This document shows positions 45,518-63,170 of a stretch of DNA of 64,000 nt, one piece after another (the first letter of the stretch is position 1; each line of letters begins with the position of its first letter). Position numbers and translations under genes: made by a program. Source of the DNA: an uncultured Aquabacterium sp. (GTDB lineage: Bacteria; Pseudomonadota; Gammaproteobacteria; Burkholderiales; Burkholderiaceae_C); the NCBI RefSeq assembly GCF_947366995.1, contig NZ_CANBCC010000001.1, positions 62,001 to 126,000 on the forward strand, written 5' to 3'. The notes beneath the pieces were generated by a model. The model did not search any database. It was not told the origin of the DNA and worked only from the letters and a program-made list of their open reading frames with translations.

Positions 45518-45666
45518 GGGCACAGGCGGTGGCGTGGCGACATGGCCTGAGAGCAATCGGCGTGCGTGGCGCCACCGGCTCGCGGTTTGCGGGGGCTCTG
45601 CTACGATATCGGGCTGTCCAAAACGGGGCCCGGGAGGGCCACACGGGCAGCGTTGCTGCATGCAGG

Positions 45667-45743
45667 GGGCCGTTAGCTCAGTCGGTTAGAGCAGAGGACT
45701 CATAATCCTTTGGTCGTTGGTTCAAGTCCAACACGGCCTACCA
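45667..45743 (+). tRNA. tRNA with CAT anticodon (probably elongator tRNA-Met; Ile-CAT possible)
   Basis: The 77-nt cloverleaf has acceptor GGGCCGT paired with ACGGCCT (one G-T pair at the end). The D arm is GCTCAGTCGGTTAGAGC. The anticodon loop CTCATAA gives anticodon CAT, and the T arm has GGTTCAAGTCC. The CCA is encoded (45741-45743). Paired position 1-72 rules out initiator tRNA. Elongator Met and lysidine-modified Ile tRNAs both read CAT in DNA; identity elements must decide. Confidence 0.9.
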
Positions 45744-45875
45744 ATCGCGCGCACATCCTTCCAGACGCATGACTCGCCCGCCCGCACGGAACAGCACCGA
45801 CCCCACGGACCGGCTGGATTGATGCTGCCTGTGGCCGCTTGTACTGCGGAGGCATGCATATGTCTGGCATCCCGC

Positions 45876-45890
45876 GCACGGCCACGGTGC
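45876..45890 (+). promoter_or_regulatory. NtrC-like binding site
   Basis: GCACG-GCCAC-GGTGC matches the NtrC dyad GCACC-N5-GGTGC with one mismatch. Its centre is about 127 bases before the predicted sigma-54 start. A second GTGCGCAC palindrome lies about 30 bases further on. Confidence 0.6.
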
Positions 45891-45983
45891 AGGCGCACCG
45901 TTGTCGACCTCGTGCGCACCACATGACCGCGCTCTGGGCGCCGTCCGCTGCGCGAATCACCTCCGTCGCCCTCTAGATCCGTC

Positions 45984-45999
45984 TGGCACGCTTGATGCA
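45984..45999 (+). promoter_or_regulatory. Sigma-54 (-24/-12) promoter of the transporter operon
   Basis: TGGCACGCTTGATGCA has GG and GC exactly ten bases apart and matches TGGCACG-N4-TTGCA except for A in place of the first T of TTGC. The predicted start is near 46010, about 49 bases before the substrate-binding-protein gene. Confidence 0.75.
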
Positions 46000-46058
46000 A
46001 TGACTCCGTCGGTATTACTGCTTTATCAACCCGTAATAACCGTGGAGTGGTTGCAATC

Positions 46059-47063
46059 ATGTTGTCTGGTGCCGTGTCGAAGCGTTGGATGGGTGGGGTC
46101 AAGGCCCTGGTGGCCGCAGCAGCGGTGGTGGGAACACAGCTGGCGTGGGCCGCGCCGCCCCTGAAAGTCGGCTACAGCGACTGGCCGGGCTGGGTGGCGT
46201 GGCAGGTGGCCATCGACAAGGGTTGGTTCAAGCAGGCCGGGGTCGATGTCAAGTTCGAGTGGTTCGATTATTCGGCGTCGATGGAGGCCTTCGCGGCGGG
46301 CAAGATCGACGCCGTGACCATGACCAACGGCGACGCGCTGGTGACGGGCGCCGGGGGTGCCCGCAGCGTGATGGTGATGGTGACCGACTACTCCAACGGC
46401 AACGACATGATCGTCGGCAAGCCGGGCATCAAGTCGCTCAAGGACCTCAAGGGCAAGAAGGTGGCGGTCGAGTTCGGCCTGGTCGAGCACCTGTTGCTGC
46501 TCAATGGCTTGAAGAAGGCGGGCCTGAAGGAAAAGGACGTCACGCTGGTCAACGCCAAGACCAACGAGATGCCGCAGGTGCTGGCGTCAGGCGATGTGGC
46601 CGCGGTGGGGGCATGGCAGCCGGTGGCAGGGCAGGCCATCAAGGGCCTGCCGGGTTCGCGTCCGATCTACACCTCGGCCGACGAGCCGGGCCTGATCTAC
46701 GACGTGCTGGCCGTGAGCCCCACGAGCCTGGCTGCCCGCAAGGCCGACTGGCAGAAGGTGGTGGGCGTGTGGGACAAGGTGGTGGGCTTCATCAACGACC
46801 CCAAGACGCAGCCAGAGGCTTTGAAGATCATGGCCGCCCGCGTGGGCGTGCCGGCCGAAACCTATGCCGGCTTCCTGAAGGGCACCAAGCTGCTGACCTT
46901 GAAGGAAGGCCAGGCCGTGATGGCGAAGGGCGAGGGCTTCAAGTCGCTGCATGGGTCGAGCAAGATCGCCGACGATTTCAACGTGGCGAATGACGTCTAC
47001 AAGAAGGCGCAGCCCGTCGATGCCTACATCGATGCCTCGCTGACGAGCGCGGCCGCCAAGTAA
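46059..47063 (+). CDS. ABC transporter substrate-binding protein, urea-carboxylase-associated type
   Basis: This is a periplasmic binding protein of the NitT/TauA/SsuA fold with 334 residues. A signal peptide ends LAWAAP. The body starts [63 protein letters not shown], the pattern of the subfamily encoded beside urea-carboxylase-type genes. [29 protein letters not shown] and [12 protein letters not shown] fit too. Guanidine or urea is the likely ligand, by context only. The start at ATG 46059 follows GGAG by 11 bases. It heads a six-gene operon under a sigma-54 promoter. Confidence 0.87.
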
Positions 47064-47134
47064 GCGCGCCCGCGTGATGCACGGCCAGGCTTGCGGCCTG
47101 GCCCCCTCCTGACACCTGCCTGAACGGGATCACC

Positions 47135-48100
47135 ATGAGTGCCTCCGCCTGGTTCGCCGTGCGCGCGCCACTGTCGCCCCGCCGCAAGCTGCTGCTCGGC
47201 ATCGGCTCGTTCGTGTTGCCCCTGCTGCTGTGGGCCGCCGTGAGCTATGTGCCATGGCTGTGGCATCCGCAGGTGCTGGTGTCGTCGGTGGGCGAGGTGG
47301 ACTATCTCGAAGTGGGCATGCGCATGGACCGTGCGCAGTTTGCAGAAGAGGTGGCCGCCATGCACGAGGCTGGCAAGACGCCACCGCAGGGCACGCCGGC
47401 CAACCCCGTCTACCTGCCGGCCCCGCATGAGGTGGCGCGGGCCTTCTACACGGCCTTCACCACGGCGCCCGAGCAGAAGGACGGGCTGTGGCTGCATGAG
47501 AGCCTGTGGCAGAGCATGCAGGTGATCTTCTGGGGCTTTCTGATCTCGTCGGTGATCGGCGTGCCGCTGGGCATTCTGTGCGGCGTCTACAGCCCCATTG
47601 CCCGGCTCAATGAGCCTTTCATCGAGTTCTTTCGCTATCTGCCCGCGCCGGCCTTCGGTGCGCTGGCCGTGGCCATCCTGGGTATTCACGATGGCCCCAA
47701 GATCGCCATCATCGTGATCGGCACGTTCTTCCAGCAGGTGCTGGTGATCGCCAACACGACGCGCAAGCTGGAGTTCGGCTTGCTGGAGGCCGCGCTCACC
47801 CTGGGCACGAAGCGCTGGCGTCTGCTGAGCCGCGTGGTGCTGCCCGGCATCCTGCCGGACCTGTACCGCGACCAGCGCGTGCTGCTGGGCTGGGCCTGGA
47901 CCTACCTGATCGTGGCCGAGCTGATCGGCACCAGTTCTGGCATCACCTTCTTCATCACGCAGCAGGCGCGCTACCAGCACTTCGAGAACGTCTATGCGGC
48001 CATCGCCATGATCGGTGTGATCGGGTTGGGCATCGACCTGATGCTGGCGTGGCTGGGGCGGCGGCTGTTCCCGTGGGACCGCAGCCAGGGCAAGTCGTGA
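47135..48100 (+). CDS. ABC transporter permease (SsuC/TauC type)
   Basis: This inner-membrane permease has 321 residues. The first helix (LLLGIGSFVLPLLLWAAVSYV) is followed by a periplasmic stretch of about 90 residues before the next helix, larger than in SsuC but usual for the urea-carboxylase-linked subfamily. The EAA loop reads EAALTLGTKRWRLLSRVVLPGILPDLY (about residue 210). Remaining helices include VIFWGFLISSVIGVPLGILCG and YAAIAMIGVIGLGIDLMLAWLG. It lies 71 bases after the binding-protein gene. Confidence 0.88.
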   Translation: MSASAWFAVRAPLSPRRKLLLGIGSFVLPLLLWAAVSYVPWLWHPQVLVSSVGEVDYLEVGMRMDRAQFAEEVAAMHEAGKTPPQGTPANPVYLPAPHEVARAFYTAFTTAPEQKDGLWLHESLWQSMQVIFWGFLISSVIGVPLGILCGVYSPIARLNEPFIEFFRYLPAPAFGALAVAILGIHDGPKIAIIVIGTFFQQVLVIANTTRKLEFGLLEAALTLGTKRWRLLSRVVLPGILPDLYRDQRVLLGWAWTYLIVAELIGTSSGITFFITQQARYQHFENVYAAIAMIGVIGLGIDLMLAWLGRRLFPWDRSQGKS

Positions 48101-48121
48101 GCACACCGCGAGGAACACCCC

Positions 48122-49045
48122 ATGAATGACAACGCCATGCCTGCCGTGAGCTACCTCGACCAGTCGGAGGTGGTGAAGGCCCGCTTCGATCGGCTCAAGG
48201 CTCGCGAAGTGATCCTGGAGGTCAAGGGCCTGGGCAAGGTCTATGACTCGCACCAGGGGCCCGTCACGGCCTTGAAGGGCATCGATTTCAAGACGCACCG
48301 CCGCGAGTTCGTGTGCGTGCTGGGCCCCTCGGGCTGCGGCAAGTCGACGCTGATCCGCATCCTGGCCGGGCTGGAGTCGCACACCAGCGGCGAGGTGCTG
48401 CTGGATGGCAAGCCGGTGAACGGGCCGGGCAAGGACCGCGGCATGGTCTTCCAGGGCTACACGCTGTTCCCCTGGCTGACGGTGAAGAAGAACGTGATGT
48501 TCGGGCTGGAGGTCAATGGCGCCGGCCGCAACGAGGCCGAGGCGCAGGCACGCCAGTGGCTCGAGTTGGTTGGGCTGACGAAATTTGCCGACGCCTACCC
48601 GCACCAGTTGTCGGGCGGCATGAAGCAGCGCGTGGCGATTGCACGTGCGCTGGCCAACCAGCCGCGCATCCTGCTGATGGACGAGCCCTTCGGTGCACTC
48701 GATGCACAGACGCGCGCAAAGATGCAAGCGCATCTGCTGGAGATCTGGCGCAACATCGACATCACGATCCTGTTCATCACGCACGATCTGGACGAGGCCA
48801 TTTACCTGGCCGATCGCATCCTCGTGCTCAAGGCCCATCCGGGCGAGGTGCAGGAGCTGATCGAGGTGCCTGTGCCGCGACCTCGCAGCCCGGCTCAGTT
48901 CCGGTCGCCCGAATTCCTGGCGACCAAGGCGCGTGTCGAGGCGCTGATCCATCCGCCTGCCGCACACACCGACGAGGGCGACCCCGAGCCCGATGTGGTG
49001 CCGCAGGTCATCCGGCTGACGAACGTCGGCGACGACGTGGAATGA
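48122..49045 (+). CDS. ABC transporter ATP-binding protein (SsuB/TauB type)
   Basis: This cytoplasmic ATPase has 307 residues. Walker A is GPSGCGKST (about residue 70), the Q-loop is [14 protein letters not shown], the signature is LSGGMKQR, and Walker B is [15 protein letters not shown], with the switch [15 protein letters not shown]. There is an N-terminal extension of about 35 residues and a Pro/Glu-rich tail. It powers the adjacent permease. The creatininase-family gene starts 10 bases downstream. Confidence 0.91.
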
Positions 49046-49055
49046 GGAGCACGAG

Positions 49056-49847
49056 ATGTTCTGGTCTCACCTGACCTGGGCCGAGCTGCCCGAGGCCCTG
49101 CAGGCGGCATCGCAAGCGGCCATCCTGCCTGTGGGCGCCACCGAGCAGCACGGGCCGCACATGGGTTGCGGCATGGACACCGAGATCGCCGACAAGCTGT
49201 GCCGCGCGGTGTCGAAGGAAACGGGTGTGCCCATGCTGCCGCCGCTGCCGTACGGCTGCTCGCTGGGCCACAGCCGGCGCTGGCCGGGCACGATCCCGGT
49301 TCAGCCCATCACGCTGATCGAGCTGATCAAGCAGATTGGCGATGGCGCGTACCACAGCGGGGTGCGGCGCCTCTTCATCGTCAACACGCACGTGACGAAC
49401 GCGGCGCCGCTGCGCTGTGCGCTGGAGATGCTGCGTTCCGAGCACGATGACCTGATGGTGGCCGTCATCAACTCCCCCGACATCAGCGAGCGCGTGCGGG
49501 CCTTCCACTTTGCCGATGCGGTGGACTGGCATGCGAACGATGCCGAGACCTCGCTGATGCTGGCGGTGTCGCCCGAGATGGTGCGGCCCGAGCGGCTGGC
49601 CGAGGGCGATGACCCGGACCGCACGGGCGGGCAGGTGTTTGCGCATCCGGTGAACCGCACCAGTGCCAACGGCGTGACGGGTTTTCCGAGCCGTGCGACG
49701 GCCGAGAAGGGCCATGAGGCCTTTGCGTGGATGGTGGAAGACCTGTCGGCCCTGATCCGCCGCGGCCTGACTCAGACGCCGCCGCTGCCGCACTCGTACT
49801 TCACGTCGTGCACGACCGCGCCTGCGCCACCCGCGCCGCCGCGCTGA
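49056..49847 (+). CDS. Creatininase family amidohydrolase
   Basis: This metal-dependent cyclic-amide hydrolase family member has 263 residues. The metal ligands are visible: Glu in LPVGATEQHGPHMGCGMDTEIA (also His and Asp there, about residues 29-40) and Glu in DWHANDAETSLMLA (about residue 164), with GHSRRWPGTI and VNTHVTNAAP between. True creatininase opens creatinine to creatine, but the family also includes hydrolases of other cyclic and N-formyl compounds. Its position in a guanidine/urea-type transporter operon suggests a guanidino or amide substrate, which remains to be found. The C-terminal tail is Pro/Ala-rich. Confidence 0.86.
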   Translation: MFWSHLTWAELPEALQAASQAAILPVGATEQHGPHMGCGMDTEIADKLCRAVSKETGVPMLPPLPYGCSLGHSRRWPGTIPVQPITLIELIKQIGDGAYHSGVRRLFIVNTHVTNAAPLRCALEMLRSEHDDLMVAVINSPDISERVRAFHFADAVDWHANDAETSLMLAVSPEMVRPERLAEGDDPDRTGGQVFAHPVNRTSANGVTGFPSRATAEKGHEAFAWMVEDLSALIRRGLTQTPPLPHSYFTSCTTAPAPPAPPR

Positions 49848-49946
49848 ACGACCGCGCGTTCGGTTTCCTGATCCTGTTCATCGATCCGTCCTGGGGCCGC
49901 CTGGCCCGCAGGCTGGCCCTGTTCGTCCTCACTCCTGGAGTCCCTC

Positions 49947-51332
49947 ATGTCTTCTCCTGCCGCTTCCTCGTCCCACTCCCCGGAACAGATCGCCGCCATC
50001 CAGCAGTCGCTGAAGGCCAAGGGCGTGAAGTACTGCATCGGCGCCTATGTCGACATCCACGGCGTGCAGAAAGCCAAGGTGGTCCCCATTGACCACCTGC
50101 CGCAGATGGCGGCCGGCTCGGAGCGCTACACCGGCTACGCGCTGGACGGACTGGGCCAGGCGCCCAACGACGACGAGCTGACCTCGGTGCCCGACCTGAA
50201 CCACATTGTGCAGTTGCCGTGGGAGCCCAAGGTGGCCTGGATGCCGGCCGACAACCACTTCCAGGGCAAGCCGTACCCGCTGAGCACCCGTGTCGCCTTG
50301 AAGAACGTGCTGGCGCAGGCGGCCGAGATGGGATTCGGCATGAACCTGGGCATCGAGTGCGAGATTTACCTGCTGAAGAAGGAAGCCGATGGCTCGCTGA
50401 GCGTGCCGCGCCCCAACGACAAGCTCGTCAAGCCTTGCTACGACGTGCAGGGCTTTCTCGACAACTTCACGTGGCTCGACAAGGTGGGCAGCTGCATCAA
50501 CGACCTGGGCTGGGACCTTTACTCCTTCGACCACGAGGACGCCAACGGCCAGTTCGAGTTCGACTTCAACTACAGCGATGCCCTGACGTCGTGCGACCGG
50601 CTGACCTTCTTCCGCATGATGGCCAAGCACTATGCCGAAGAGGAGGGCCTGATCGCCACGATGATGCCCAAACCCTTTGCGAACAAGACGGGCACGGGCG
50701 CGCACTTCAACATGTCGCTGTACGACCTGAAGACGGGCAAGAACCTGTTCGCGTGCGACCCCAAGGAGGATCCGCGTGGCATCGGCCTGACCCCGCTGGG
50801 CTATCAGTTCGTGGCGGGCATCCTCAAGCACGGGCGGGCGTTGTGCGCGGCCTTCGCGCCGACCGTCAACAGCTACAAGCGCCTGGTGCGCCGTGGGGGC
50901 ATGAGCTACTTCTCGTGGGCGCCTGTGTTCAACTCGTATGGCTCCAACAACCGGACGAACTCGGTGCGCATCCCGGCCGGTGGCGGTCGTTGCGAATCAC
51001 GCAATGCCGACGGTGCGGTGAATCCCTACCTGGCCGCCGCGCTGGCGCTGGCGGCCGGCCTCGAGGGCATCCGTGAGGGGCTGGATCCGGGTGCGCCCAA
51101 CGAGGACAACCTGTACGAGCTGAGCGACGCACAGCGCCGCGAGCGGGGCATCGCGTTTCTGCCCCAGACGTTGCAGGAAGCGGTGCAGGCTTTTGCCGCC
51201 GATCCGTTGGTGGAGAAGACGCTGGGCAAGGAACTGCGCGACGAGTTCATCACCTACAAGACCAACGAGTGGGAGGCTTACCACCTGTCGGTCAGCGAGT
51301 GGGAAGTCGAGCGCTACAGCCACATGTTCTGA
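49947..51332 (+). CDS. glnT: Type III glutamine synthetase-like enzyme (GlnT family)
   Basis: This is a glutamine-synthetase-fold ligase of 461 residues. The N-terminal beta-grasp holds [25 protein letters not shown]. The catalytic domain has [46 protein letters not shown] and [36 protein letters not shown], in the usual GS order. GlnT proteins make glutamine or gamma-glutamyl amides from amines. Here it could capture ammonia released by guanidine or amide breakdown, or ligate an amine product. It lies 99 bases after the creatininase-family gene with CTGGAG before the ATG. Confidence 0.88.
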
Positions 51333-51356
51333 ACCTGATTCCGGAAAGTGACCACC

Positions 51357-51839
51357 ATGCCGAACAGCCCGATCTCCGCCGCCGCCGAGCCGCGCAACAG
51401 CCCGGTGGCGCGCATCAGTGTCTCGATGCCGGAAGACCTGCTGGCCGAGCTGGACAGCATGGTGGCCGCGCGCGGCTTCGAGAGCCGCTCGCAGGCCATC
51501 TCGGAGATGATCAACCTGCAGTTGCTCGAGCACAAGCGCAAGCTGGGCGACGAGGTGATGGTGGGCACCATCACCTTGCTGTACGACCGCTCGGTGCGGG
51601 GGCTGCAGAAGGAGCTGGCCGACCTGCAGTGCGATCACATCGACGAGGTCATCAGCTCGCTGCACGTGCACCTGATGGGGCAGCAGATGATGGAAGTGAT
51701 TCTCGTGCAGGGGCCCGCCGCCAAGCTGCAGGGCATTGCCGACCGCATGACAACCTTGCGCGGCGTGGTCACGGGGCGTCTGCAGTTGATGGCGGCCACC
51801 ATGCCGCCGCTGCATCCGCTGTCGCCTTCGAAGGGCTGA
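51357..51839 (+). CDS. NikR-like ribbon-helix-helix regulator with altered metal ligands
   Basis: This is a CopG/NikR-type repressor of 160 residues. The ribbon-helix-helix is VARISVSMPEDLLAELDSMVAARGFESRSQAISEMI (about residues 17-52). The C-terminal ACT-like domain has VMVGTITLLYDRS and SSLHVHLMGQQMMEVILVQG. Aligned without gaps to E. coli NikR as I remember it, the Ni ligands His76, His87, His89 and Cys95 become Cys92, His103, His105 and Met111. It may therefore bind another metal or none. The start at ATG 51357 has GGAAAG 8 bases upstream. It ends the operon and may control it. Confidence 0.84.
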   Translation: MPNSPISAAAEPRNSPVARISVSMPEDLLAELDSMVAARGFESRSQAISEMINLQLLEHKRKLGDEVMVGTITLLYDRSVRGLQKELADLQCDHIDEVISSLHVHLMGQQMMEVILVQGPAAKLQGIADRMTTLRGVVTGRLQLMAATMPPLHPLSPSKG

Positions 51840-51842
51840 AAC

Positions 51843-51861
51843 GCGGGGCCGGCGGCCCCGC
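51843..51861. terminator. Shared hairpin between the two convergent nitrogen operons
   Basis: Perfect 8-bp arms GCGGGGCC and GGCCCCGC with loop GGC sit in the 28-base gap between the NikR-like and allophanate hydrolase stops. T-tracts are poor on both strands (GTTT on the minus side). It probably serves both operons. Confidence 0.6.
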
Positions 51862-51867
51862 ATCCCA

Positions 51868-53751
51868 TCAAGCGGTCTGGCTCGCCAGGTAAGCCCGCCA
51901 GCCGCCAAAGGCGGTGATGTCCGTGGCGCCCTGGGTGCCGATGCCTTCACAGATGAAACCCGACACCGTGCGGCCGTCGGCCAGCTCGACCTTGCCGATG
52001 CCCAGCGGTGCCGGGATGCCGGCGACAAAGCTGCCGAAGTGTTCTGCTGGCATCTCCCACACCTCCATGGCAATGGCCTGACCGCCCTCGGCCACGCGCA
52101 CCATGCCGGGCCGGGCCACGGGGCCGCCCGGCAGGGCGTAGAGGCGGTAGTAAGGTGCCGAGTCAATGGCGCACACGCGCTTCGCACCGCGCGAGGTGAG
52201 TTGCGGGTTGAGTGGCAGGCCGCTGAGGTGGGCCCCGCACACGGCCACCAGGATGGTGCCGCTGCGCGCAGTGTCAGGCGTGTGCAGGGCGGAAGATGTG
52301 GTCTGCGCGTCCACCTGCGCGAAGTCCGTCGGGGTGGCGCCCAGGGTGTAGCCCGGGCTGTGTGCTGCGAGTGATCGGTGAAACCGGTCGGCCAGGCGCA
52401 GCAGCGGCAGGTCTTTGTGGGCCGGTGCCACCCAGGTCACGCCCCAGGGCAGCCCGGCTGCATCGCCCTCGGCCAGGAAGCCGGCCGGCACAGCCACTGC
52501 GGCGTAATCCAGCAGGTTCACGAAGTTGGTGTAATGCCCCAGGTGGCTGTTGAGCCGGATCGGGTCGGCCTGCATGTCGGCGATGCGGTAGAGGGTTCCG
52601 GCCGTGGGGGTGAGCAGGCAATCGACGTCGTTCCATACGGCATTGCACGTGCGCTGGAGTGCCTTGAGGCGGTACTGCGCGGCGAAGAGATCGGCCGCCG
52701 ACTTGGACTTGCCCGCTTCGATGATGGTCCGCACGGGCGGGAACACGGCCTCGGGTTGCGCGTTGATGAAACCGCGGATGGCCTGGTAGCGCTCGGCCAC
52801 CCAGGGGCCCTCGTACAGCAGGCGGGCGGTTTCAAGAAAGGGGGCGAAGTCGATTTCGACCGGGGTGCCGCCCAGGGCGATGGCGCGGGACACGGCGGCC
52901 TCGAACAGGGCCTGCGCCGCGGCGTTGCCGAAGAAGGCCTGGTGCTCGGCGCGGGGCACGCCGAAGCGGAAGGGGCCTTGTGAGAAATCGACCCCACTGG
53001 GCGCCACCGGTCGGCTGAACGGGTCGGCGGCGTCAAAGACGGCAGCGGCCTGCAGCACATCGTGCGCGTCACCTGCATGCAGCGCAAACACGTTCACCGT
53101 GTCGAGCGAGCGGCATGCCGGCACCACGCCGGTGGTCGACAGCAGTCCGCATGTGGGCTTGAGGCCGACCAGGTTGTTGAAGGATGCAGGCACCCGGCCC
53201 GAACCCGCCGTGTCGGTGCCCAGCGAGAAGCTTGCCCAGCCCATGGCCACCGCGACGGCCGAGCCCGAGCTGGAGCCGCCGCTGATGAAAGCGGGGTTGA
53301 ATGCGTTCGCGCAGGCGCCGTGGGGCGACCGCGTGCCGTTCAGGCCGGTGGCGAACTGATCAAGGTTGGTCTTGGCCATCGGGATGGCGCCGGCATCCAG
53401 CAGGCGTTGCACCACAAAGGCGCCGTCCTTGGGGGTGTAGGCGTACTGAGGGCAGCCGGCCGTGGTGGGCACACCGGCCAGGTCGATGTTGTCCTTGATC
53501 ACGAAGGGCACGCCATAGAGCGGCAGGCTCTGTGGGTCGATGCCCGCAAGGCGGTCGACGTAGGGCGCCAGTTCGGCGGGGCTCAGTCGATGGATGAAGG
53601 CGTGATGGTGGTCGAGCGCGCAGCGGCGGGCGGCTTCGGCCGCCACGGCCCGCACGCTGACGCCCGCGCGGTAGGCGGCGCGCAGGCTGGCCAGGTCGAA
53701 GCTCAGCTGGCTCAGGTCTTGATCCGGTGCAGTCGGTTTGGAAAAGCTCAT
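51868..53751 (-). CDS. atzF: Allophanate hydrolase
   Basis: This amidase-signature enzyme of 627 residues converts allophanate to two ammonia and two CO2. The catalytic Lys lies in PFVIKDNIDLAGVPTTAGCP (about residue 79), the Gly/Ser motif is FISGGSSSGSAVAVAMG and the nucleophile Ser region is LGTDTAGSGRVPASFNNLVGLKPT. The C-terminal domain (about residues 465-620) is the AtzF-specific decarboxylating part. The start at ATG 53751 has AAGGAG upstream; the longer frame runs into the carboxylase. It follows the carboxylase by 35 bases and is the last gene of the riboswitch-controlled operon. Confidence 0.94.
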   Translation of the reverse strand: MSFSKPTAPDQDLSQLSFDLASLRAAYRAGVSVRAVAAEAARRCALDHHHAFIHRLSPAELAPYVDRLAGIDPQSLPLYGVPFVIKDNIDLAGVPTTAGCPQYAYTPKDGAFVVQRLLDAGAIPMAKTNLDQFATGLNGTRSPHGACANAFNPAFISGGSSSGSAVAVAMGWASFSLGTDTAGSGRVPASFNNLVGLKPTCGLLSTTGVVPACRSLDTVNVFALHAGDAHDVLQAAAVFDAADPFSRPVAPSGVDFSQGPFRFGVPRAEHQAFFGNAAAQALFEAAVSRAIALGGTPVEIDFAPFLETARLLYEGPWVAERYQAIRGFINAQPEAVFPPVRTIIEAGKSKSAADLFAAQYRLKALQRTCNAVWNDVDCLLTPTAGTLYRIADMQADPIRLNSHLGHYTNFVNLLDYAAVAVPAGFLAEGDAAGLPWGVTWVAPAHKDLPLLRLADRFHRSLAAHSPGYTLGATPTDFAQVDAQTTSSALHTPDTARSGTILVAVCGAHLSGLPLNPQLTSRGAKRVCAIDSAPYYRLYALPGGPVARPGMVRVAEGGQAIAMEVWEMPAEHFGSFVAGIPAPLGIGKVELADGRTVSGFICEGIGTQGATDITAFGGWRAYLASQTA

Positions 53752-53786
53752 GGGGTGATCTCCTTGTGGCAGCGGGGCCGCGGTGT

Positions 53787-56700
53787 TCAGTCTTCGATCA
53801 GGATCAGCACGTCCTGACCCGCATCCACGGGTGCACCTTCGCGGCACATCACGCGGTGCACCTGGCCGTTGCAGGGGGCAGTGATGGCGAATTCCATCTT
53901 CATGGACTCGACGACGACGAGCACCTCGCCGGCCTTGACCCGCTGTCCGTCCTTCACGGCAACCTGCCAGACATTGCCGGGCACGCTGGTGGCCACGAAC
54001 TGGCCGCCTTCGGGCAGGTCGAGCTCCGAATCCGTTCCGGCGGCATTGACCTCGGCTTCGCCCACGTATTCGGCCTGGCCGGTGGCCGCCCATCGCTCGC
54101 GCTCGGCCTCGAAAGCGGCCTGCTGCCGGGCCTTGAACGCGGCGATGTCATCGGCCTGTTCGGCCAGGAAGCGGCGGTAGCTGCGCAGGTTGAAGCTGGA
54201 CTCTTCGATGCGCAGCGCGTAGCCGCCGTGCGGGAAGGTGGCCCGGATGCGCAGCAACTCGGCTTCGCTGACGGGATGAAAGCGGATCTCGTCGAAGAAG
54301 CGCAGCAGCCAGGGTTGCGCAAAGGCCGGGTGGCCGCTGCCCTCGCCATGCCGCCAGCGGTTCCACATCTGCAACGTGCGGCCGACGAACTGGTAGCCGC
54401 CGGGGCCTTCCATGCCGTAGACGCACATGTAGGCGCCACCGATGCCGACGGCGTTCTCGGGTGTCCAGGTGCGGGCGGGGTTGTACTTGGTGGTGACCAG
54501 CCGGTGGCGCGGATCGACCGGCGTGGCCACCGGCGCACCCAGGTACACGTCGCCCAGCCCCAGCACCAGGTAGCTGGCATCGAACACGACCTTGAAGACG
54601 TCGTCGATATGGTCGAGGCCGTTGATGCGGCGGATGAACTCGATGTTGCTCGGGCACCAGGGCGCATCCGGCCGCACCGACTGCATGTACTTCTCAATGG
54701 CCAGGCGCGTCTGCGCGTCGTCCCATGACAGCGGCAGGTGCACGACGCGGTTGGGAATCGTGATGTCGTCCAGCGGCGGCAGGTGGTCTTCGACCTCGAG
54801 CAGCACGCGCAGCAGTTCGTCGCGCGGCAGCATGGCCGGGTCGAAGTGCACCTGCAGCGAGCGGATGCCCGGCGTCATGTCGATGACCCCAGTCAGACCT
54901 TGTCCGCCGTTGAGCTTCTTCAGCTCGGCCATCAGCGCGTGTACCCGGAAGCGCAGCTCGAGGTCGAGCACCAGCGGGCCGAACTCCATGAGGACGTAGC
55001 GGTCGCCGGCCTGGCGCACCACCACGTGGGGCTTTTCGCCGTCCGCCGCCACATCGGCGAGGATGGGGCTGAGGCAGGCGCCGGCGTCATCGCGCGGTGA
55101 GGCGGGCAGGGGGGCGGTCAGCGTGTGGATGCAGGCTTCGAGCGCGGCTTCGCGTTCGGCAGCCTGCGTGGCGGAAATGCGGTGGAAACGCACCGTGTCG
55201 CCCGGTCGCAGTTGCCCCAGTTTCCACAACTCTGCGTTGACCACCACGGCCGGGCAGACGAACCCGCCGAGGCTGGGGCCATCAGGCCCCAGGATCACGG
55301 GCATGTCGCCGGTGAAGTCGATGGCGCCGATCGCGTAGGCGTTGTCGTGGATGTTGGAGGGGTGCAGGCCGGCCTCACCGCCATCGGCACGCGCCCACTT
55401 GGGGCGGGGCCCGATGAGGCGCACGCCGGTGCGGCTGGAGTTGTGGTGCACCTTCCAGTCAGTGGCGAAGAAGGTGGTGATGTCGTCGTTCTGGAAGAAA
55501 TCCGGTGCGCCATGTGGCCCGTAGAGCACGCCGATGTCCCAGTGCTGCGCGTAGCCTGGCGTGGCGGGCGGTGAGGCCGCGTTGCCGGCCCGGCCACTGC
55601 CCGGACTGGCCAGGTGCAGCACATCGCCCACGCGCAGGTTGCGCCCGCCATGTCCGCCGAACTGCCCCAGGGTGAAGGTGGCGCGGCTGCCCAGATAGGT
55701 GGGCACATCGAGCCCGCCACCCATGGCCAGGTAGATGCGGCAGCCGCGCTCGGCACGGCCGATGGCCAGGGTGCCGCCCGCCGGAATGCGATGGCTCTGC
55801 CACATCGGCAGCGGGGTGCCGTCCAGCGCCACCGTGACCGGGGCGCCGGTCACGGCCACGACGGCGTCGGTGTGGAACTTCAGGGTCGGGCCGGCCAGCG
55901 TGCATTCCAGCGTGGCCGCGTCCGGCGCATTGCCCACGAGCTGGTTGGCCATGCGGTGGGCCAGGGCGTCCATCGGGCCGGAAGGCGGCACGCCCACATC
56001 CCACAGCCCCTGTCGGCCCGGCCAGTCCTGCACGGCGGTCTGCACGCCGGCGGCCAGCACTTCGACGGTGTCGGGCCGGAAGGCAAACGTGCCCAGAAAG
56101 CGTGTGACCTGACGGCCTTCCCGGAACACCGGGTGCTTCACCACCTGCCGCAGGTAGGGGAGGTTGGTCTCGATGCCGGCCAGGCGTGTGTCGGCGAGGG
56201 CCTGGTCGAGTTGCTGCAGCGCCGCCTCCCGCGTCTCGGCCGTCACGATGAGCTTGGCCAGCATGGGGTCGTACCAGGCGGGCACCTCGGTGCCGCGCTC
56301 GACCCAGCCGTCCACGCGGGCCTGTCGAGGGAAAACGACCTCGGTCAACAAGCCGGCGCTGGGCTGGAAGTTGCGTGCAGGGTCTTCCGCGTACAGCCGG
56401 ACCTGGATGGACGCGCCTTGTGCACGGGGCTGCAGCGAAGCGAGGTCAGGCAGCTCCCCTGCGGCCAGTTGCACCATCCACGCGACCAGATCGACGCCGC
56501 AGACCTGTTCGGTGACGCCGTGCTCGACCTGCAGCCGGGTGTTGACCTCCAGGAAGCAGAACTGCGCTGTGTCGGCGTCGTACACGTACTCCACGGTCCC
56601 GGCCGATCGGTAGCTCACCGCCAGAGCCAGGCGGATGGCCGTGTCGTGCAGCGCCTGGCGCTGCGCCTCCGTGAGGCCAGGGGCGGGCGTTTCCTCGATG

Positions 56701-57410
56701 ACCTTCTGGTTGCGGCGCTGCACGGAACAATCGCGCTCGCCCAGCGCAATCACCTGGCCCTGCCCATCCCCGAAGACCTGCACCTCGATGTGACGGGCGT
56801 TCTCGACGAATTTCTCCAGGTAGAGGCCGGCGTCCTTGAAGTTGGCCGAGGCCAGGCGTTGCACCGACGTGAAGGCGTCGGCCAGCTCGGCGTCGGAGCG
56901 CACCAGCCGCATGCCGATGCCGCCGCCGCCGGCAGTGCTCTTGAGCATCACCGGATAGCCGATGCGCACAGCTTCGCGCTGGGCATGGTCGACATCGTTC
57001 AGCAGGCCCGATCCGGGCAGCAGCGGCACTTGGCTGCGTTGCGCCAGCTCGCGGGCCGTGTGCTTGAGGCCGAACGCGCGCATCTGGTCGGCGGTGGGGC
57101 CGATGAAGGCGATGCCGGCCGCTTCGCACGCCTCGGCAAAGGCGGGGTTTTCGGAAAGGAAGCCGTAGCCGGGGTGGATGGCCTGGGCGCCACATGCCTG
57201 CGCAATGCGCAGGATCTCGTCGGCGCGCAGGTAGCTTTCTGCAGCCGGGGCCGGTCCCACGCAGAAGGCCTCATCGGCCTCGCGGACGTGGCGGGCCGAG
57301 GCGTCGGCCTCGGAGTAGATGGCCACGCTGCGCACGCCCAGCGCCTTCAGCGTGCGGATGATGCGGCAGGCGATGGCGCCCCGGTTGGCGATCAGAACCT
57401 TCTCGAACAT
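53787..57410 (-). CDS. uca: Biotin-dependent guanidine/urea carboxylase
   Basis: This is a biotin-dependent carboxylase of 1207 residues. Biotin carboxylase comes first (about 1-450: [25 protein letters not shown]-grasp [35 protein letters not shown]). A KipA-like/KipI-like carboxyltransferase follows (about 480-1090: [68 protein letters not shown]). The C-terminal biotinyl domain carries the biotin Lys in [12 protein letters not shown]. Automatic annotation would call it urea carboxylase. A guanidine-I riboswitch at the operon front and two DUF1989 partners indicate guanidine as the real substrate, as shown for homologues. Start ATG 57410 begins the conserved domain. Confidence 0.93.
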
Positions 57411-57484
57411 GGGCTCATTCCGGCGGGCCGTCCCGCGAACGTGTGTCGCACAGCGGGCCGTCCCGCTGGCCGTGTTCAGAAAGG

Positions 57485-58171
57485 TCAGGCGGCTTCGCGG
57501 ACGGGATCCCACACCAGCAACTGGATCGGCGTGGGGTTGTAGGCGTTGCAGGGGTTGTTGAGCTGCGGGCAGTTCGAGATCAGCACCCACACGTCCATCT
57601 CGGCGCGCAGTTCAACGTACTTGCCTGGCCCGGACACGCCGTCTGCAAAGGTCAGTTGCCCGTCGGCCGTCACGGGCACGTTCATGAAGAAGTTGATGTT
57701 GGGCACCAGATCGGCCTTGCCCAGACCGACGTCGGCGTGCTGGATGGCGAGCAGGTAGTTGTCCCGGCAGCTGTGCATAAACTTCTTCTGCAGCGCGTAG
57801 CGCACGGTGTTGCTTTCGGCCGCGCAGGCGCCGCCCAGCGTGTCGTGTCGCCCGCAGGTGTCGGCCACGATGGTCAGCATCGGTTGGCCTTCGTTGCTGT
57901 ACAGCACGGAGCCGGTGGTGAGGTAGATGCCCCCCTGGCGCAGCAGGGTGTCGGTGGCGCTGTAGTGCTCGGCCACGTCGTTGGCGTTGTAGAAGAGAAC
58001 GTCGGCGGCCTGGTTGCCTTCGAGGTCGACAATGCGCAGGGTCTGCCCGCGCGTGACCTTGAAGAGAATGGGTTCCCCCGCGGGGTGGCGCAGGTTGGTG
58101 ACCGCATTGGCCTCTTGCAAGGCGCTGTGCTGGATGCGGAAGGCGGTGGCGTGAGGGGCGGTGTGCGTCAT
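57485..58171 (-). CDS. Urea-carboxylase-associated protein 2 (DUF1989), carboxyguanidine deiminase subunit
   Basis: This DUF1989 protein of 228 residues contains [77 protein letters not shown] and the end [24 protein letters not shown]. The conserved Cys/His residues are likely metal ligands. Homologues pair with a second DUF1989 protein to deiminate carboxyguanidine to allophanate and ammonia. The start at 58171 is chosen for the GGAGG upstream. It follows its paralogue by 14 bases and precedes the carboxylase by 74 bases. Confidence 0.9.
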
Positions 58172-58185
58172 GACGTGCCTCCGGA

Positions 58186-59007
58186 TCACAGCGCGAAGAC
58201 GTCGCTGTTGTGGTGCGCGCGGGCGTTCTCGCCGCGGAAGGTGCGGCAGAAGTCATCCGACGCGGCCGGCCCGCTGTGCCATGCCACCACACCGACTTGC
58301 GGCGGGGCATAGTCGGGATTCGGGTTCAGCGGATGCGGGGCCGTGGAGATCGCGATCACCACGTCCATGTCCAGACGAAGTTCGACGTGGTCACCCGCCT
58401 GGCTGTGGCTGCGGGCGAAATGGAAGCGCCCCTCTTCATCGACCGACACCTTGCTGAACAGGTTGACCGGCGCGATGAGGTCCCGGCGTCCCAGGCCGTG
58501 CTTGCCGATCTCGATCAGCAGGCCGTCCTTGCCCGAGCGGTGCATGGCGTTGCGGTGGGCCTCGAACCGCCGTTCGCCAAAGCGCTGCTGCATGGTGGGC
58601 GTGTCGAGCAGGGCGCCGAGCGGGTCGTGCCAGCCCAGGCTGTCCGCCGTGATGCTGGCCATGGCGCGCCCCATGTCGCTCATCAGCACATGGCCGCGGC
58701 CGTAGTGGGCCGTGTGCTGTGCCTTGAGCGAATCCGGCATGTTGTAGCGCTCGAGCGTGTTGTGGGCGGCATAGAGCACCACGCTCACGTTCGCATCTGC
58801 GCCCAGGGCCACGAAGCGCAGCGCGGTCCCGCGCCTCAGTCGCCACGACCAATGGCCGCCACCGGGCACACGTTCAGACCACAGGATCCGGTCGGTGGGC
58901 ACGCCAGCGAGGGCATCGCTGGGCAGTCGCTGCCAGTGCGCCACGGCATCGACCGGCGCGGTGGCGGGCGGGTTGTCGAGGGTGTGTTCGGGATGATGGG
59001 CAGACAT
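58186..59007 (-). CDS. Urea-carboxylase-associated protein 1 (DUF1989), carboxyguanidine deiminase subunit
   Basis: This is the first gene of the riboswitch operon, 273 residues, DUF1989 family. [69 protein letters not shown] forms the core. [11 protein letters not shown] and [21 protein letters not shown] are family markers. With its partner downstream it should form the carboxyguanidine deiminase. A GGAG ribosome-binding site lies 6 bases before the ATG, about 69 bases after the aptamer's end. Confidence 0.9.
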
Positions 59008-59076
59008 CGCGGGCTCCAGCAGGTCAGGACACAGGCGCGAGAGACACCGACATCGGCGTGACCGCCTCTGTCAGGA

Positions 59077-59176
59077 CCTCCCGGGCTTTTGTCCCTCCGT
59101 GGAACCGCGTTGCCGCAGCCGAGTGCTCTCGGACCAGCCAGCCGGCAAGCATGCCGACCCGGAACCCTAGCGCTCA
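59077..59176 (-). promoter_or_regulatory. Guanidine-I (ykkC) riboswitch
   Basis: Read on the minus strand, the conserved aptamer blocks occur in order. GCTAGGGTTCCG is at 59173-59160, CTGGTCCGAGAG at 59137-59126, and CACGGAGGGACAAAAGCCC, running into GGGAGG, ends near 59077. The intervening stems (GCCGGC-type P1b region and GCCGAGTGC/GCACTCGGC arms) are present. No U-tract hairpin follows before the UAAP1 start, so control is probably at translation or by another mechanism. Its presence marks the operon as responding to free guanidine. Confidence 0.95.
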
Positions 59177-59226
59177 CTCAGCCCGGCGGCGTGGTGCGCC
59201 GACCGGACTGCTCTCACTGGTCTTCA

Positions 59227-59242
59227 TGCAAGGGTGATGCCA
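59227..59242 (-). promoter_or_regulatory. Sigma-54 (-24/-12) promoter of the guanidine operon
   Basis: On the minus strand TGGCATCACCCTTGCA matches TGGCAC-N5-TTGCA with the GG and GC ten bases apart. The predicted start is near 59216, some 40 bases before the riboswitch aptamer. Confidence 0.85.
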
Positions 59243-59261
59243 GCTTGCCATGCAGTGCCGC

Positions 59262-59276
59262 GCACCATGGCGGTGC
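59262..59276 (-). promoter_or_regulatory. NtrC-like binding site upstream of the guanidine operon
   Basis: GCACC-ATGGC-GGTGC is a perfect match to the NtrC dyad. It sits about 35 bases upstream of the -24/-12 element, closer than the classical enhancer distance. A further GGTGCA half-site lies near 59291. Confidence 0.7.
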
Positions 59277-59301
59277 GAGGCAGTGCCGCTGGTGCACAGG
59301 A

Positions 59302-61227
59302 TCAGGCTGCGAGCCTGAAGGTGTTGACGGCCTTCACCAGTTCGGCCGCCTGGCTGTGCAGGCTTTCGGCCGCCGCCGCGCTTTGCTCCACCAGCGCGGC
59401 GTTCTGCTGCGTGGAGGCATCCATCTGATGCACGGCCAGACCCACTTGCGAGACGCCGGCCCGTTGCTCTTCGCTGGCTGAGCGGATCTCCGACATGATG
59501 TGCGCCACGCGTTCGACGGCGCCCACGATGGTCTTCATCGCTTCGCCGGCCTCCTCGGCATGGTCGCGTCCTTCCTGAACGCGCTCCACACTGGCGGCGA
59601 TCAACTGCTTGATCTCCCTGGCTGCCTCGGCACTGCGCGAAGCCAGCAGACGCACCTCGCTCGCCACGACGGCAAAGCCCCGGCCGTGATCGCCCGCGCG
59701 CGCGGCCTCCACAGCCGCATTGAGCGCAAGGATGTTGGTCTGAAAGGCAATGCCGTCGATCACGCCGACGATGTCGGTGACGCGCTGCGAGTGCTCGTCG
59801 ATGCTGCGCATGCTGGTGACCACACCCTGCACGATCTCGCCCCCGCGCATGGCGGACTCGGTGGCGGCCTGGGTGAGGGCATCGGCCTGGCCGGCGCTGT
59901 CGGCGTTCTGCCGCACGGTGGCGCCCAGTTGCTCCATCGACGAGGCAGTCTGAGCAAGCGCGCTGGCTTGCTCTTCCGTGCGCTGTGACAGATCGCTGTT
60001 GCCATGGGCAATCTGCTGGCTGGCGCTGGCCACGCAGTCCGCATTGGCGCGCACGGCACCCACGGTGGCCGACAGGCTGTCCGTCATGCGGTCCAGCGCG
60101 CGGATCAGGTCGCCCACCTCGTCGCGGTCGGTCGAGGCCACGCGCTGCGTCAGATCGCCGTCGGCAACGGCCTTGGCGAGGTCGACCGCGCGGGAGATCG
60201 ACCGCACGGTGGAGCGCGTGATCGACAGAACGAGGGCGGCGCCCAGCACGCCGAGCAAGGCCAGGACAGCGAGCACCATCAGGACGCGTTGCTGTGTGCG
60301 GGCGGCGTTCTGGTCGAGGTTGGCCTTCAACGCTGCGAAGGCCGCATCCACCAGCTTGAACTGCGTGTCGATGACCTGGGTGGTTTCGGCGAAGTACTGC
60401 GCTGGCGGGTGGGTCAGCGATTCAGCGCGGATCAGCGCACGGTCGATCAGCGCGAGCCCACGCTCGCCGGCCTGAACTGCCTCGCCGATCGGGCCATTCA
60501 GTGTCCGGCCGAGTTGCGCGTCCTCGGCCACCGCCTGCGCCAGGGCGCGCTTGGCGTGGTCCAGGCTGTCTTTCATCGCACCAGCCAGCGAGGCAATGGC
60601 CGCACGTTCATCGGGCGTGCCCTGACCGTTGGTCAGCAGCAGCGTGCCGCGTGCGCGCATCTGTCCCAGGCTTTCTGCCAGGGCAGGCAGATGCTCCAGC
60701 ACCGCAAGCTGCAGGTAGTAGCCCGCCGGCTGCTGGTGGGTGGCGATGCCCGTGGCCCGGGCGATATCGAGCACCAGGTTGCGCTGGGCCGTCACCAGGG
60801 CCGTGTGGCGCGCGAAGCTCTCGGGGCCGGCCACGCCGCGCGCATCCACGGCCGATGCCACGGCGCGCCAGTCACGCGCGATGCCCTGTGCCGCATCCGA
60901 CAGCGCGTTGCTGTCCAGTGCCTTGACTTCGGCCAGTGCGGTCTCGATGGCCGCATTGATTTCACGTTGCTTGGCCTGCCGCGGCTCCGGGCTCTTCTCC
61001 TTGCCACCGAGGTACAGCGCCGAGAGCCCGCGGTGCTGCTGAGTGAGCTGCACCAGCTTGAGCAGCGAACCGGATGGCGCAAGCCCTTGCACTTCTTCCT
61101 GTGCCCGGTGGATGGACTGGAGATCGCCCCGCATGAGGAGGGCCGAGGGCACCACCATCATCGCCGCGGCCAGGATGCCAAGGATGAGGAATTTGTGCGC
61201 AAACCGCAGGTCGTTGATCGAACGCAT
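59302..61227 (-). CDS. Methyl-accepting chemotaxis protein with NIT-like sensor region
   Basis: This chemoreceptor has 641 residues. The first membrane helix ([20 protein letters not shown]) and second helix ([22 protein letters not shown], about residue 315) flank a helical periplasmic region of about 280 residues. It contains [18 protein letters not shown], a pattern like NIT (nitrate/nitrite-sensing) domains. HAMP follows ([22 protein letters not shown]), then the signalling tip [48 protein letters not shown]. The start at 61227 begins the membrane anchor. The ligand is not known; the NIT match is by eye. Confidence 0.9.
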
Positions 61228-61367
61228 GAGTGGGAATGACCGATGCCGATGAATGCCCGCAATGTAGGCAGCGGCGTCGCTTTGCGCTGTCAGGAGATCT
61301 CGACAGTTTTTGCCGGCCCGCGCGGAGAGCCGCACGACAACGGCTTGCGCGTGATGCCGTTCACGCC

Positions 61368-62960
61368 TCAGGGCGTCACGGCATCGCCGTTCAGGCGGAA
61401 CACGGCCACCGAAGCCGCGACATCGTCGGCCTGTCGGGTGACGTCGACGGCCGCGTGCGCAATGCGTTCAACGAGTGCGGCATTCTGTTGCGTGATGTGA
61501 TCGAACTCGCTGATCGCCCCGTTGACCTGCTGGATGCCAAGCTTCTGCTGCTGCATGCCATGGGTGATGTCGGCGATGAACGCATGCACGGCGTGAATGG
61601 CCTGTTGCACATCGTCCATGCCCTGCTGCACCAGGAGGGTCTGTGCGTCGCCGGCTTCTACCTGCTGCACCGTGTCCTTGATCAGGGTCCGCACCTCCTG
61701 CGCCGCCACCGCACTGCGTTGCGCCAGCGTGCGTACCTCGCCGGCCACCACGGCAAAGCCGCGGCCATGCTCGCCTGCCCGGGCCGATTCGACCGCTGCG
61801 TTCAGGGCCAGCAGGTTGGTCTGAAAGGCGATCTCGTCCACCACCTGAATGATGTCCATCACGCGGCCGGATGCCGTGTGGATGCGTTGCATGCTGGTTG
61901 ACATCTGCGCGACCGAAGCGGCACTGGCCTCGGCGGCGCGCTTGGCGGCGTTGGCCATGCTGGTGGCCTCTTCGGCCTTGTGCGCGCTCTGCGACACGCT
62001 CGTGGTGATCTGCTCGACCGAGGCCGCCGTCTGCTGCAATTGACCGGCCGACACGATGGTGCGCTGATTCAGGTCGCCATTGCCATGGGCGATGTCCGCG
62101 GTGTCGCTGCGCAGGTGAGAGACCCCCCGGCGCGCATCGCGGACGATGGCAGTGAAGTTGGCGTTCACCTGTGTGAGGGCCTCTGACAGTCGGCCGATCT
62201 CGTCATGGTGTGCCGAAGCCACCTCGGCGGTCAGGTTGCCGCCCGCCATCTGATGCACAGACCGGGTGAGCGAGGCGATCGGGCGCAGCACCTGGCGTGT
62301 CAGATAGAACCCACCGAGCAGCGCGCAGCCTCCAGCGGCCGTCAGACCCAGTGTCAGCATGCCCGCCGACGGGGACGCGGGCCCACCGGCCTGGTACGCG
62401 CCCAGGAGAAAACCCAGCAAGCCCAGGCTGCCGGACATCAATGCCATCCTGCCCTTCAACCCCGGCTGCAGACGATCCAGCGCGCGAGCCAGCGGATGGG
62501 TGGGCAACAGGTGACCCCGGTCGAGCTTCAGCGGGCCGCTCATGTCGCCACCAGCCTTCATGCGCTGGTACAGCGCTTCGGCCTCTGCCACGGCGGCACG
62601 GTCCGGCCGGTTACGCACCGACATGTAGCCGGTGAGCTCGCCGCGTGCGTCCAGCAGCGGGGTCACGTTGGCTTTCACCCAGTAGAAGTCACCGTTCTTG
62701 CGCCGGTTCTTCACCATGCCGGACCACGGCAGGCCTTGCGAGATCGTGGCCCACATGTCCCGGAAGGCCTCTTCCGGCATGTCGGGGTGACGGATCACGT
62801 TGTGCGGTTGCCCGAGCAACTCGTCCTTGGTGAAGCCGCTGACTTCGATGAAGCTGGGATTGCAGTAGCAGATGCGGCCCTTGAGGTCCGTCGTGGTGAC
62901 GAGGGAGTCACCCTCGGCAAACAGGACCTCGTTTTGAGTGACGGGGAGATTTGACCGCAT
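61368..62960 (-). CDS. aer: PAS-domain methyl-accepting chemotaxis protein (Aer-like)
   Basis: This energy-taxis-type receptor has 530 residues. The N-terminal PAS domain (about residues 10-115: [54 protein letters not shown]) has the IRHPDMP segment of FAD-binding Aer proteins. Two hydrophobic stretches ([41 protein letters not shown]) anchor it, then comes HAMP and the signalling tip [41 protein letters not shown]. No periplasmic domain is present. It should sense redox or electron-transport state, which fits a denitrifier. Confidence 0.9.
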
Positions 62961-63170
62961 TTGTGACGCCGTGTAACAAACAGGCAACTGATTATCTGCA
63001 CGGACGCAGGGATGTCTAGGGTTTGCCCGAGTGGTGGCTGGTAACGCTCGGTTTCTGTCAGCGCTGCGTCATGCTCGTGCGCAGATCGCGCAGGCGATGG
63101 GGGCAGTGGCCCGGTGCGGCGCGTACATAATCGGCGGCTTCAACAAGTCGGGTCTCCAGGCTGTACTTTC

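Follow-up and report, generated by a model that had tools for sequence, protein, structure and literature searches.

According to the accessible part of PMC12186494, the gca operons of Raoultella, Erwinia and Klebsiella begin with a Guanidine-I riboswitch and carry a Guanidine-II riboswitch in front of the guanidine carboxylase gene gca and the allophanate hydrolase gene. The gca operon of Vreelandella boliviensis, as outlined in the available portion of PMC12508155, contains Guanidine-I, an internal Guanidine-II, an ATP-binding cassette (ABC) importer and the accessory genes mgdH and mgdL for methylguanidine. Here, we analysed a related locus of an uncultured Aquabacterium sp., located in a stretch of 64,000 nucleotides (nt) of contig NZ_CANBCC010000001.1 (hereafter the window; all positions count from its first letter). 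Two convergent units meet end to end in this locus: unit 1 on the minus strand (51868-59242), which comprises the riboswitches and the guanidine enzymes, and unit 2 on the plus strand (45984-51839), in which the genes for an ABC importer, the creatininase-family protein CRN, the type III glutamate-amine ligase GS3 and a NikR-family protein follow each other in this order (46047-51839).

The operons of Raoultella, Erwinia and Klebsiella agree with the window in their enzymes and in the double-riboswitch layout; however, their importer lies inside the Guanidine-I unit, whereas the importer of the window belongs to a convergent unit that lacks Guanidine-I and carries a predicted NikR-like operator. 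The V. boliviensis operon likewise combines Guanidine-I and an internal Guanidine-II with an ABC importer and accessory genes outside the core pathway, the latter being mgdH and mgdL there and the genes for CRN, GS3 and the NikR-like protein in the window. The accessible part of PMC12186494 names RNA sensors of guanidine only, namely four riboswitch classes. No description of a unit such as unit 2, of a NikR-like protein in connection with guanidine, or of a creatininase with a guanidine riboswitch, was found in the literature that was searched, which does not include subscription papers, and the available part of PMC2667541 draws no link between NikR and urea carboxylase.

A previous sequence-only reading of the window had recast its urea carboxylase locus as a guanidine degradation operon. 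This recasting of such operons, like the layout with Guanidine-I and Guanidine-II, is correct and already published (PMC12186494, PMC11410670, PMC12508155), and it covers only half of the locus. What is new here, as judged from sequence comparison, is the alternation, on predicted guanidine importer units, between Guanidine-I and an apparently nickel-blind NikR-type regulator, the operator pattern of which was tested on new loci. We consider it probable that the window harbours a two-unit guanidine nitrogen locus in which this NikR-type protein acts as a repressor and takes the place of Guanidine-I on the importer unit.

The regulator of the importer unit lacks the nickel site of NikR

The last gene of unit 2 (51348-51839, plus strand) encodes a protein that retains the ribbon-helix-helix and NikR C-terminal domains (PF01402, PF08753) common to the NikR nickel regulators 2bj1, 2ca9 and 1q5v, with an E-value of 4e-28 to 2bj1. 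It scored 117.8 bits with PRK04460 (cut-off 105) and 88.2 bits with TIGR02793, which is under the cut-off of 175.45. In contrast to the nickel regulators, the window protein sits with guanidine genes and has lost the Cys ligand: when aligned with NikR of P. horikoshii and H. pylori, which both display the His, His, His, Cys (HHHC) nickel site, it reads Cys, His, His, Met (CHHM). Comparison with its relatives revealed the same loss throughout. The nickel Cys is missing in all 47 of them, the sequences of which are all distinct and which comprise 24 rows from the window and the best 80 of 591 loci (mapped for neighbouring genes), 7 degenerate proteins of the class sample (L098-L103, L121) and 16 later additions. 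Moreover, three or all four ligand positions are altered in several loci (YNNT, SNNI, VHFS, GHFS). The search of the class genomes yielded 35 NikR-family matches, 8 of which are degenerate; 22 of the 27 others were fetched, L125 gave no row, and all 21 readable sequences display HHHC.

A predicted operator lies between promoter and importer gene

Dyads upstream of the importer yielded the pattern GTAWTAC-N14-GTAWTAC (equivalent to GTAWTA-N16-TAWTAC), which lies downstream of a sigma54-like promoter and ahead of the first gene. The operator of E. coli NikR consists of two GTATGA half-sites spanning 28 bp end to end; the predicted operator has the same spacing and differs in its half-site, GTAWTA. 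In the window, the site GTATTAC-N14-GTAATAA (46012-46039, plus strand; 13/14 matches) is the only one with at most 2 mismatches, 0 being expected, and the genome contains one further such site. In searches close to the start of the binding-protein gene, the operator reached at least 12/14 in 26 of the 27 rows with the NikR-like protein and at most 9/14 in all 33 rows without it, a difference (26/27 versus 0/33) that is not independent because the motif was derived from these same loci. The exception, L052, has no valid upstream region, its binding-protein gene being cut by the contig end.

The pattern was then fixed and applied to 32 genomes, 8 with and 24 without the NikR-like protein, allowing at most 1 mismatch. 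The former contain six exact sites, three of which are the known importer sites of G361, G293 and G275. The three new ones lie before gca in G275, before the CRN gene in G340 at a distance of more than 10 kb from gca, and directly before an importer on another contig in G197. In the 24 genomes without the regulator, a single exact site was observed (G192), with none of the query genes nearby. In addition, 16 new NikR-like loci were collected from 378 phylum and 330 order genomes, which are partly overlapping samples, at E ≤ 1e-26. With the pattern fixed, all 16 display a site with at most 2 mismatches within about 170 nt before an importer, CRN or regulator gene; the 272 kb of these loci hold 26 such sites, with 6 or 7 elsewhere. 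Guanidine-I was detected in none of the 16.

Some sites lie at further genes of the pathway. In G275, both cgdB and gca are preceded by an operator-like site, as is cgdB in G233. L131 (7338-7537, 10162-10189) and L132 (8402-8429), which are loci without Guanidine-I, carry extra operator sites before cgdB or gca, which would fit a takeover of those riboswitch positions by the NikR-like protein as well. In L165 (8870-8897), the divergent genes for the NikR-like protein, which displays RHHT at the ligand positions, and for CRN-GS3 share GTATGA-N16-TCATAC, the operator sequence of E. coli NikR.

The regulator alternates with Guanidine-I downstream of sigma54-like promoters

Comparison of the importer units indicates that the regulator and the riboswitch exclude each other. 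We counted units with at least 300 nt of upstream sequence, by which L018 was dropped, and a Guanidine-I site within 1.2 kb in front, using a Guanidine-I model trained on 25 sites of the same set; L052 was measured from the permease gene, and the Guanidine-I site of L053 is about 0.9 kb away. Among 77 units, 28 encode the NikR-like protein and 44 have Guanidine-I in front; the two never occur together, and 5 units (L048, L077, L080-L082) lack both. Of the 37 units with the importer type of the window, 28 encode the NikR-like protein, 7 have Guanidine-I, 2 lack both and 0 combine them. The run of importer, CRN and GS3 genes sits behind Guanidine-I in L051, L055, L058, L064 and L134, and both kinds of unit are found within the Methylophilaceae. 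In L134 (6424-6532, 13562-13679) and L135 (3600-3714, 8712-8823), the importer and cgdB are each preceded by a Guanidine-I copy of their own, which gives two copies per locus, and L025 contains a separate Guanidine-I (21866-21981, minus strand) distant from its gca locus.

The consensus of sigma54 promoters, TGGCAY-N5-TTGCW, was used to score the regions in front of both sensors. In each of the 26 loci with the operator, an element with 9 to 11 of 11 matches was found 19-31 nt upstream of it; the window has TGGCACGCTTGATGCA (45984-45999, plus strand; 10/11) at a distance of 28 nt. Of the 63 Guanidine-I matches, 61 were scored (L025 and L073 were left out), and elements with at least 9/11 matches precede 58 of these, compared with 13 of 540 (2.4%) random 102-nt stretches taken from nine sources. 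As the same promoter element precedes the operator and Guanidine-I, both sensors would be placed just downstream of a nitrogen-type transcription start.

Unit 1 and the identity of the carboxylase

Unit 1 begins with the sigma54-like element TGGCATCACCCTTGCA (59227-59242, minus strand), which matches the consensus at 11/11 positions and precedes the Guanidine-I leader. For the latter, the three consensus blocks to which the sequence-only reading had pointed were recovered on the minus strand, in the stated order, ahead of the DUF1989 genes. A cmscan search with RF00442 bore this out by a full-length match (model positions 1-107) at 59181-59076 on the minus strand, with 81.7 bits (gathering threshold 63) and E 5.3e-13, the sole match in the 4.0-Mb genome, which is 99.85% complete. 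The genes for UAAP1, UAAP2, the carboxylase and the allophanate hydrolase follow on the same strand. The cgdB-like UAAP1 gene (58186-59007; TIGR03425, 334.5 bits) and the cgdA-like UAAP2 gene (57485-58189; TIGR03424, 340.7 bits) both match PF09347 and encode predicted carboxyguanidine deiminase subunits. Both scores exceed the cut-offs, which indicates two different DUF1989 subunits beside gca, as for CgdAB. The gca gene itself, annotated as urea carboxylase, spans 53787-57410 (TIGR02712, 1884 bits), and its nearest named homologues, in Aquabacterium parvum B6 and a Comamonadaceae isolate, share 88% identity each. The allophanate hydrolase gene extends from 51868 to about 53751, its start being presumably marked by the residues MSFSK (TIGR02713, 780.7 bits; PF21986). 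Thus, the family models recovered the announced gene content of two DUF1989 genes, a large biotin carboxylase and an allophanate hydrolase. The named genes are present in the interval to which the operon had been assigned (53787-59176), with the exception of the allophanate hydrolase, which falls outside it. The expectation that annotation by domain would lead to urea was likewise correct, as NCBIfam labels these genes urea catabolism.

A Guanidine-II (mini-ykkC) aptamer, overlooked previously, matches RF01068 at 57469-57423 on the minus strand (33.2 bits, E 0.0075). It lies in the gap between the UAAP2 gene and gca, comprises two hairpins, both with ACGG loops, ends 12 nt before the ATG of gca at 57410 and is the only match in the genome. 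In 63 of 81 sources, a model built on 25 such sites, the one of the window among them, detected Guanidine-II no more than 200 nt ahead of gca. Scanning of positions 45600-59400 by E-value revealed no guanidine riboswitch beyond these two and none before unit 2. Folding of the window leader suggested a pairing of the Shine-Dalgarno sequence of cgdB with the GGUUCC block of the aptamer; we gave it no weight, as this block complements most Shine-Dalgarno sequences. The relatives were inspected by eye only.

According to the accessible text of PMC11410670, a guanidine-type carboxylase has an Asp at the position of K. lactis residue 1330 and requires the Asp at 1584, and the available part of the review PMC12186494 gives the same residue rule. 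Comparison of the carboxyltransferase residues, which had been recommended together with the guanidine assignment, showed that D698 of the window aligns with position 1330, an Asn in K. lactis urea amidolyase (5i8i), and that D954 corresponds to D1584. Among 107 stretches, which count the window gene twice and one gene as two pieces and perhaps include further repeats, position 698 was readable in 104 (103 D, 1 N) and position 954 in 103, with D in all. The single N at 698 belongs to L093, where the hydrolase lies upstream and no DUF1989 gene was found by the search; its product is probably a true urea carboxylase and could serve as a natural urea-type control. Taken together, the two riboswitch classes, the two DUF1989 subunits and the carboxyltransferase Asp support degradation of guanidine rather than urea by the locus.

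Two genes for methyl-accepting chemotaxis proteins (59302-62987) lie immediately upstream of the Guanidine-I unit. They were rejected as members of the locus, as neither was found at more than half length in L003-L006 or L026.

Importer, CRN and GS3

The presumed guanidine importer of unit 2 is composed of a substrate-binding protein of the SsuA/NMT1 type (46047-47063; PF09084; TIGR03427 155.9 bits, below the cut-off of 333.9), a permease (47135-48100; PF00528) and an ATPase (48122-49045; PF00005), all encoded on the plus strand, as are the two enzymes that follow.

CRN (49056-49847) is a metal hydrolase of the creatininase family (PF02633, 231.6 bits) that retains Glu30, His32, Asp41 and His112. 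The ligand of the second metal in creatininase, which we take to be Glu122, is replaced by Thr114, the NGHYEN motif of 1q3k being aligned with NTHVTN, and Thr occupies this place in 22 of 22 CRN rows. Given the missing Glu122 and a score of 116.5 bits for the creatininase equivalog (cut-off 235), the identification of CRN as a creatininase was rejected.

GS3 (49947-51332; TIGR03105, 652.8 bits) has the glutamate-methylamine ligase 9qur as its nearest solved structure. In glutamine synthetase (GS), we take the Asp of the FDGSS motif to be the ammonium-site residue. An alignment with GS 7tdv placed Thr at this Asp in GS3 of the window and four relatives, and, of 25 rows, all 22 that cover the site read YTG, YTA or FTG there; the identification of GS3 as an ammonia-dependent glutamine synthetase was therefore rejected. 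It shares the glutamine-synthetase-like ligase family and the replacement of the ammonium Asp with the glutamate-methylamine ligases 9qur and 7cql; however, these have Ala at this position whereas GS3 has Thr. That GS3 gamma-glutamylates a guanidino compound is a possibility only.

The CRN and GS3 genes occur as a pair in guanidine loci (49056-51332 in the window, 3664-5944 in L128). In G340, the pair lies apart from the importer and gca and has its own exact NikR-like operator, which suggests, from sequence, that the pair belongs to the NikR-like regulon.

Distribution of unit 2 and its link to gca

In the relatives, the run of importer, CRN, GS3 and NikR-like genes frequently precedes cgdB immediately and on the same strand, and a convergent unit 2, as in the window, is present in L004-L006 and L026. 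A broken unit was observed in A. parvum (L003, 15809-17202), in which the NikR-like gene and the 280 C-terminal residues of GS3 are left; neither the importer nor the rest of GS3 was found in the remaining 5 kb.

The gca gene is present in 21 of 274 class genomes. GS3 (at least 72% identity) was found in 7 class genomes, all with gca; in 6 of the 7, the two genes share a contig and are at most about 15 kb apart. CRN (at least 44% identity) occurs in 8 class genomes, 7 of which carry gca on the same contig. The eighth (G388) has a gca fragment of 335 N-terminal residues, cut at the contig end, together with cgdB, cgdA and Guanidine-II. Finally, the nickel-degenerate NikR-like protein is encoded in 8 of the 274 genomes, and all 8 have gca (p 2.9e-10, not corrected for kinship).

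Proposed model and alternative explanations

In unit 1, a sigma54-type promoter would drive a transcript composed of the Guanidine-I leader, cgdB-cgdA, the Guanidine-II leader, gca and the allophanate hydrolase gene; guanidine would be carboxylated, deiminated to allophanate and then hydrolysed to ammonia. In unit 2, the predicted order is a sigma54-type promoter, the 28-bp palindrome, the importer, CRN, GS3 and the NikR-family gene, with the regulator most likely binding the palindrome, immediately past the sigma54 start, to repress transcription. In the simplest model that we infer, the bound protein would be a roadblock under nitrogen limitation, lifted in the presence of guanidine or a close derivative. 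The NikR-like protein on DNA would thereby take the role, in the same place, of Guanidine-I on RNA in sister operons. The identity of the ligand as guanidine or a close derivative is the weakest step of this argument, and we put it forward with reserve. Correspondingly, we tentatively read the NikR-family protein as a guanidine-sensing transcription factor, the nickel pocket of which was lost and reused and which was swapped with Guanidine-I between the sigma54 promoter and the importer gene.

Several observations weigh against this proposal. The tree of permease and ATPase contains four changes of label, two of which are forced by starred branches, and a paired sign test had two starred independent pairs (five on all branches), too few for significance; the association through exclusivity with Guanidine-I thus rests on few swaps. 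One-mismatch operator sites occur in 16 of the 24 genomes without the NikR-like protein, 1 to 11 in each, so that only exact or well-placed sites carry weight. On the side of unit 1, Guanidine-II of the window exceeds the gathering threshold by a marginal 1.2 bits (33.2 versus 32) and was accepted because its position before gca is conserved, and a search for terminator-type output revealed no terminator-like hairpin near Guanidine-I. Many NikR-like proteins retain two or three of the four ligands (e.g. CHHM, HHHT) and may bind another metal. Moreover, 7 of the 16 new NikR-like loci (L163, L165, L171-L175) display no gca or cgd gene within about 8 kb, so the ligand may be another amine or a nitrogen signal. 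In G953, the one of those seven genomes that was searched (L175; the genome also harbours L059), gca lies about 100 kb off on the same contig.

These last findings lead to an alternative that we regard as possible, though rather unlikely, namely that unit 1 serves guanidine but unit 2 independently scavenges nitrogen from another amine or amide, the NikR-like protein sensing that compound or a general nitrogen signal, and that unit 2 travels with gca since both are useful in nitrogen starvation. Besides the seven loci without gca or cgd in reach, G953 favours it, as a different importer follows a separate Guanidine-I at its gca locus (L059), some 100 kb from the NikR-like unit. Contig C14 of this genome (L175, L179) accordingly contains two importer types at that distance, one with the NikR-like protein and operator, the other in a Guanidine-I gca operon, and shows, by gene arrangement, that a genome can carry a NikR-like unit in addition to another importer unit. 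No step in guanidine degradation is known for CRN or GS3, the ammonium Asp of GS is absent from GS3, which most closely resembles glutamate-methylamine ligase, and the sigma54-like promoters suggest general nitrogen control. However, gca accompanies the NikR-like protein in 8 of 8 class genomes, sister operons carry importer, CRN and GS3 behind Guanidine-I, many of them in the same direction as cgd-gca, and G275 (cgdB, gca) and G233 (cgdB) display operator-like sites in front of degradation genes as well.

We judge it improbable that the regulator is an ordinary sensor of nickel or another metal that couples metal supply to an enzyme of the unit requiring it, for instance CRN. The membership in the NikR family and the NikR-type 28-bp palindrome would fit such a role, as would the two ligand His retained in most relatives and the Glu, His, Asp and His that CRN retains at the expected metal-binding places. 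However, the Cys is missing in 47 of 47 proteins and three or four positions are altered in several loci, the NikR-like protein is also found in units without CRN (L047, L061, L068, L072, L078), and Guanidine-I replaces it in sister units. That the operon serves urea, with the carboxylase acting on urea and the riboswitch signalling a by-product only, is suggested by the NCBIfam names and is extremely improbable given the guanidine-type Asp, the two riboswitch classes, the DUF1989 subunits and the two urease alpha genes that the genome holds away from the locus.

If the proposed exchange of a NikR-type repressor for Guanidine-I is correct, the swap of a protein sensor for a riboswitch in otherwise like operons would constitute a natural experiment on RNA versus protein switches, and the NikR-like protein would provide a guanidine-responsive repressor. 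It is also a warning that NikR annotations next to nitrogen genes can be wrong. Finally, the analysis associates two further enzymes with guanidine loci, namely a creatininase-family hydrolase and a glutamate-amine ligase, and this association may reveal an unknown branch of the pathway.

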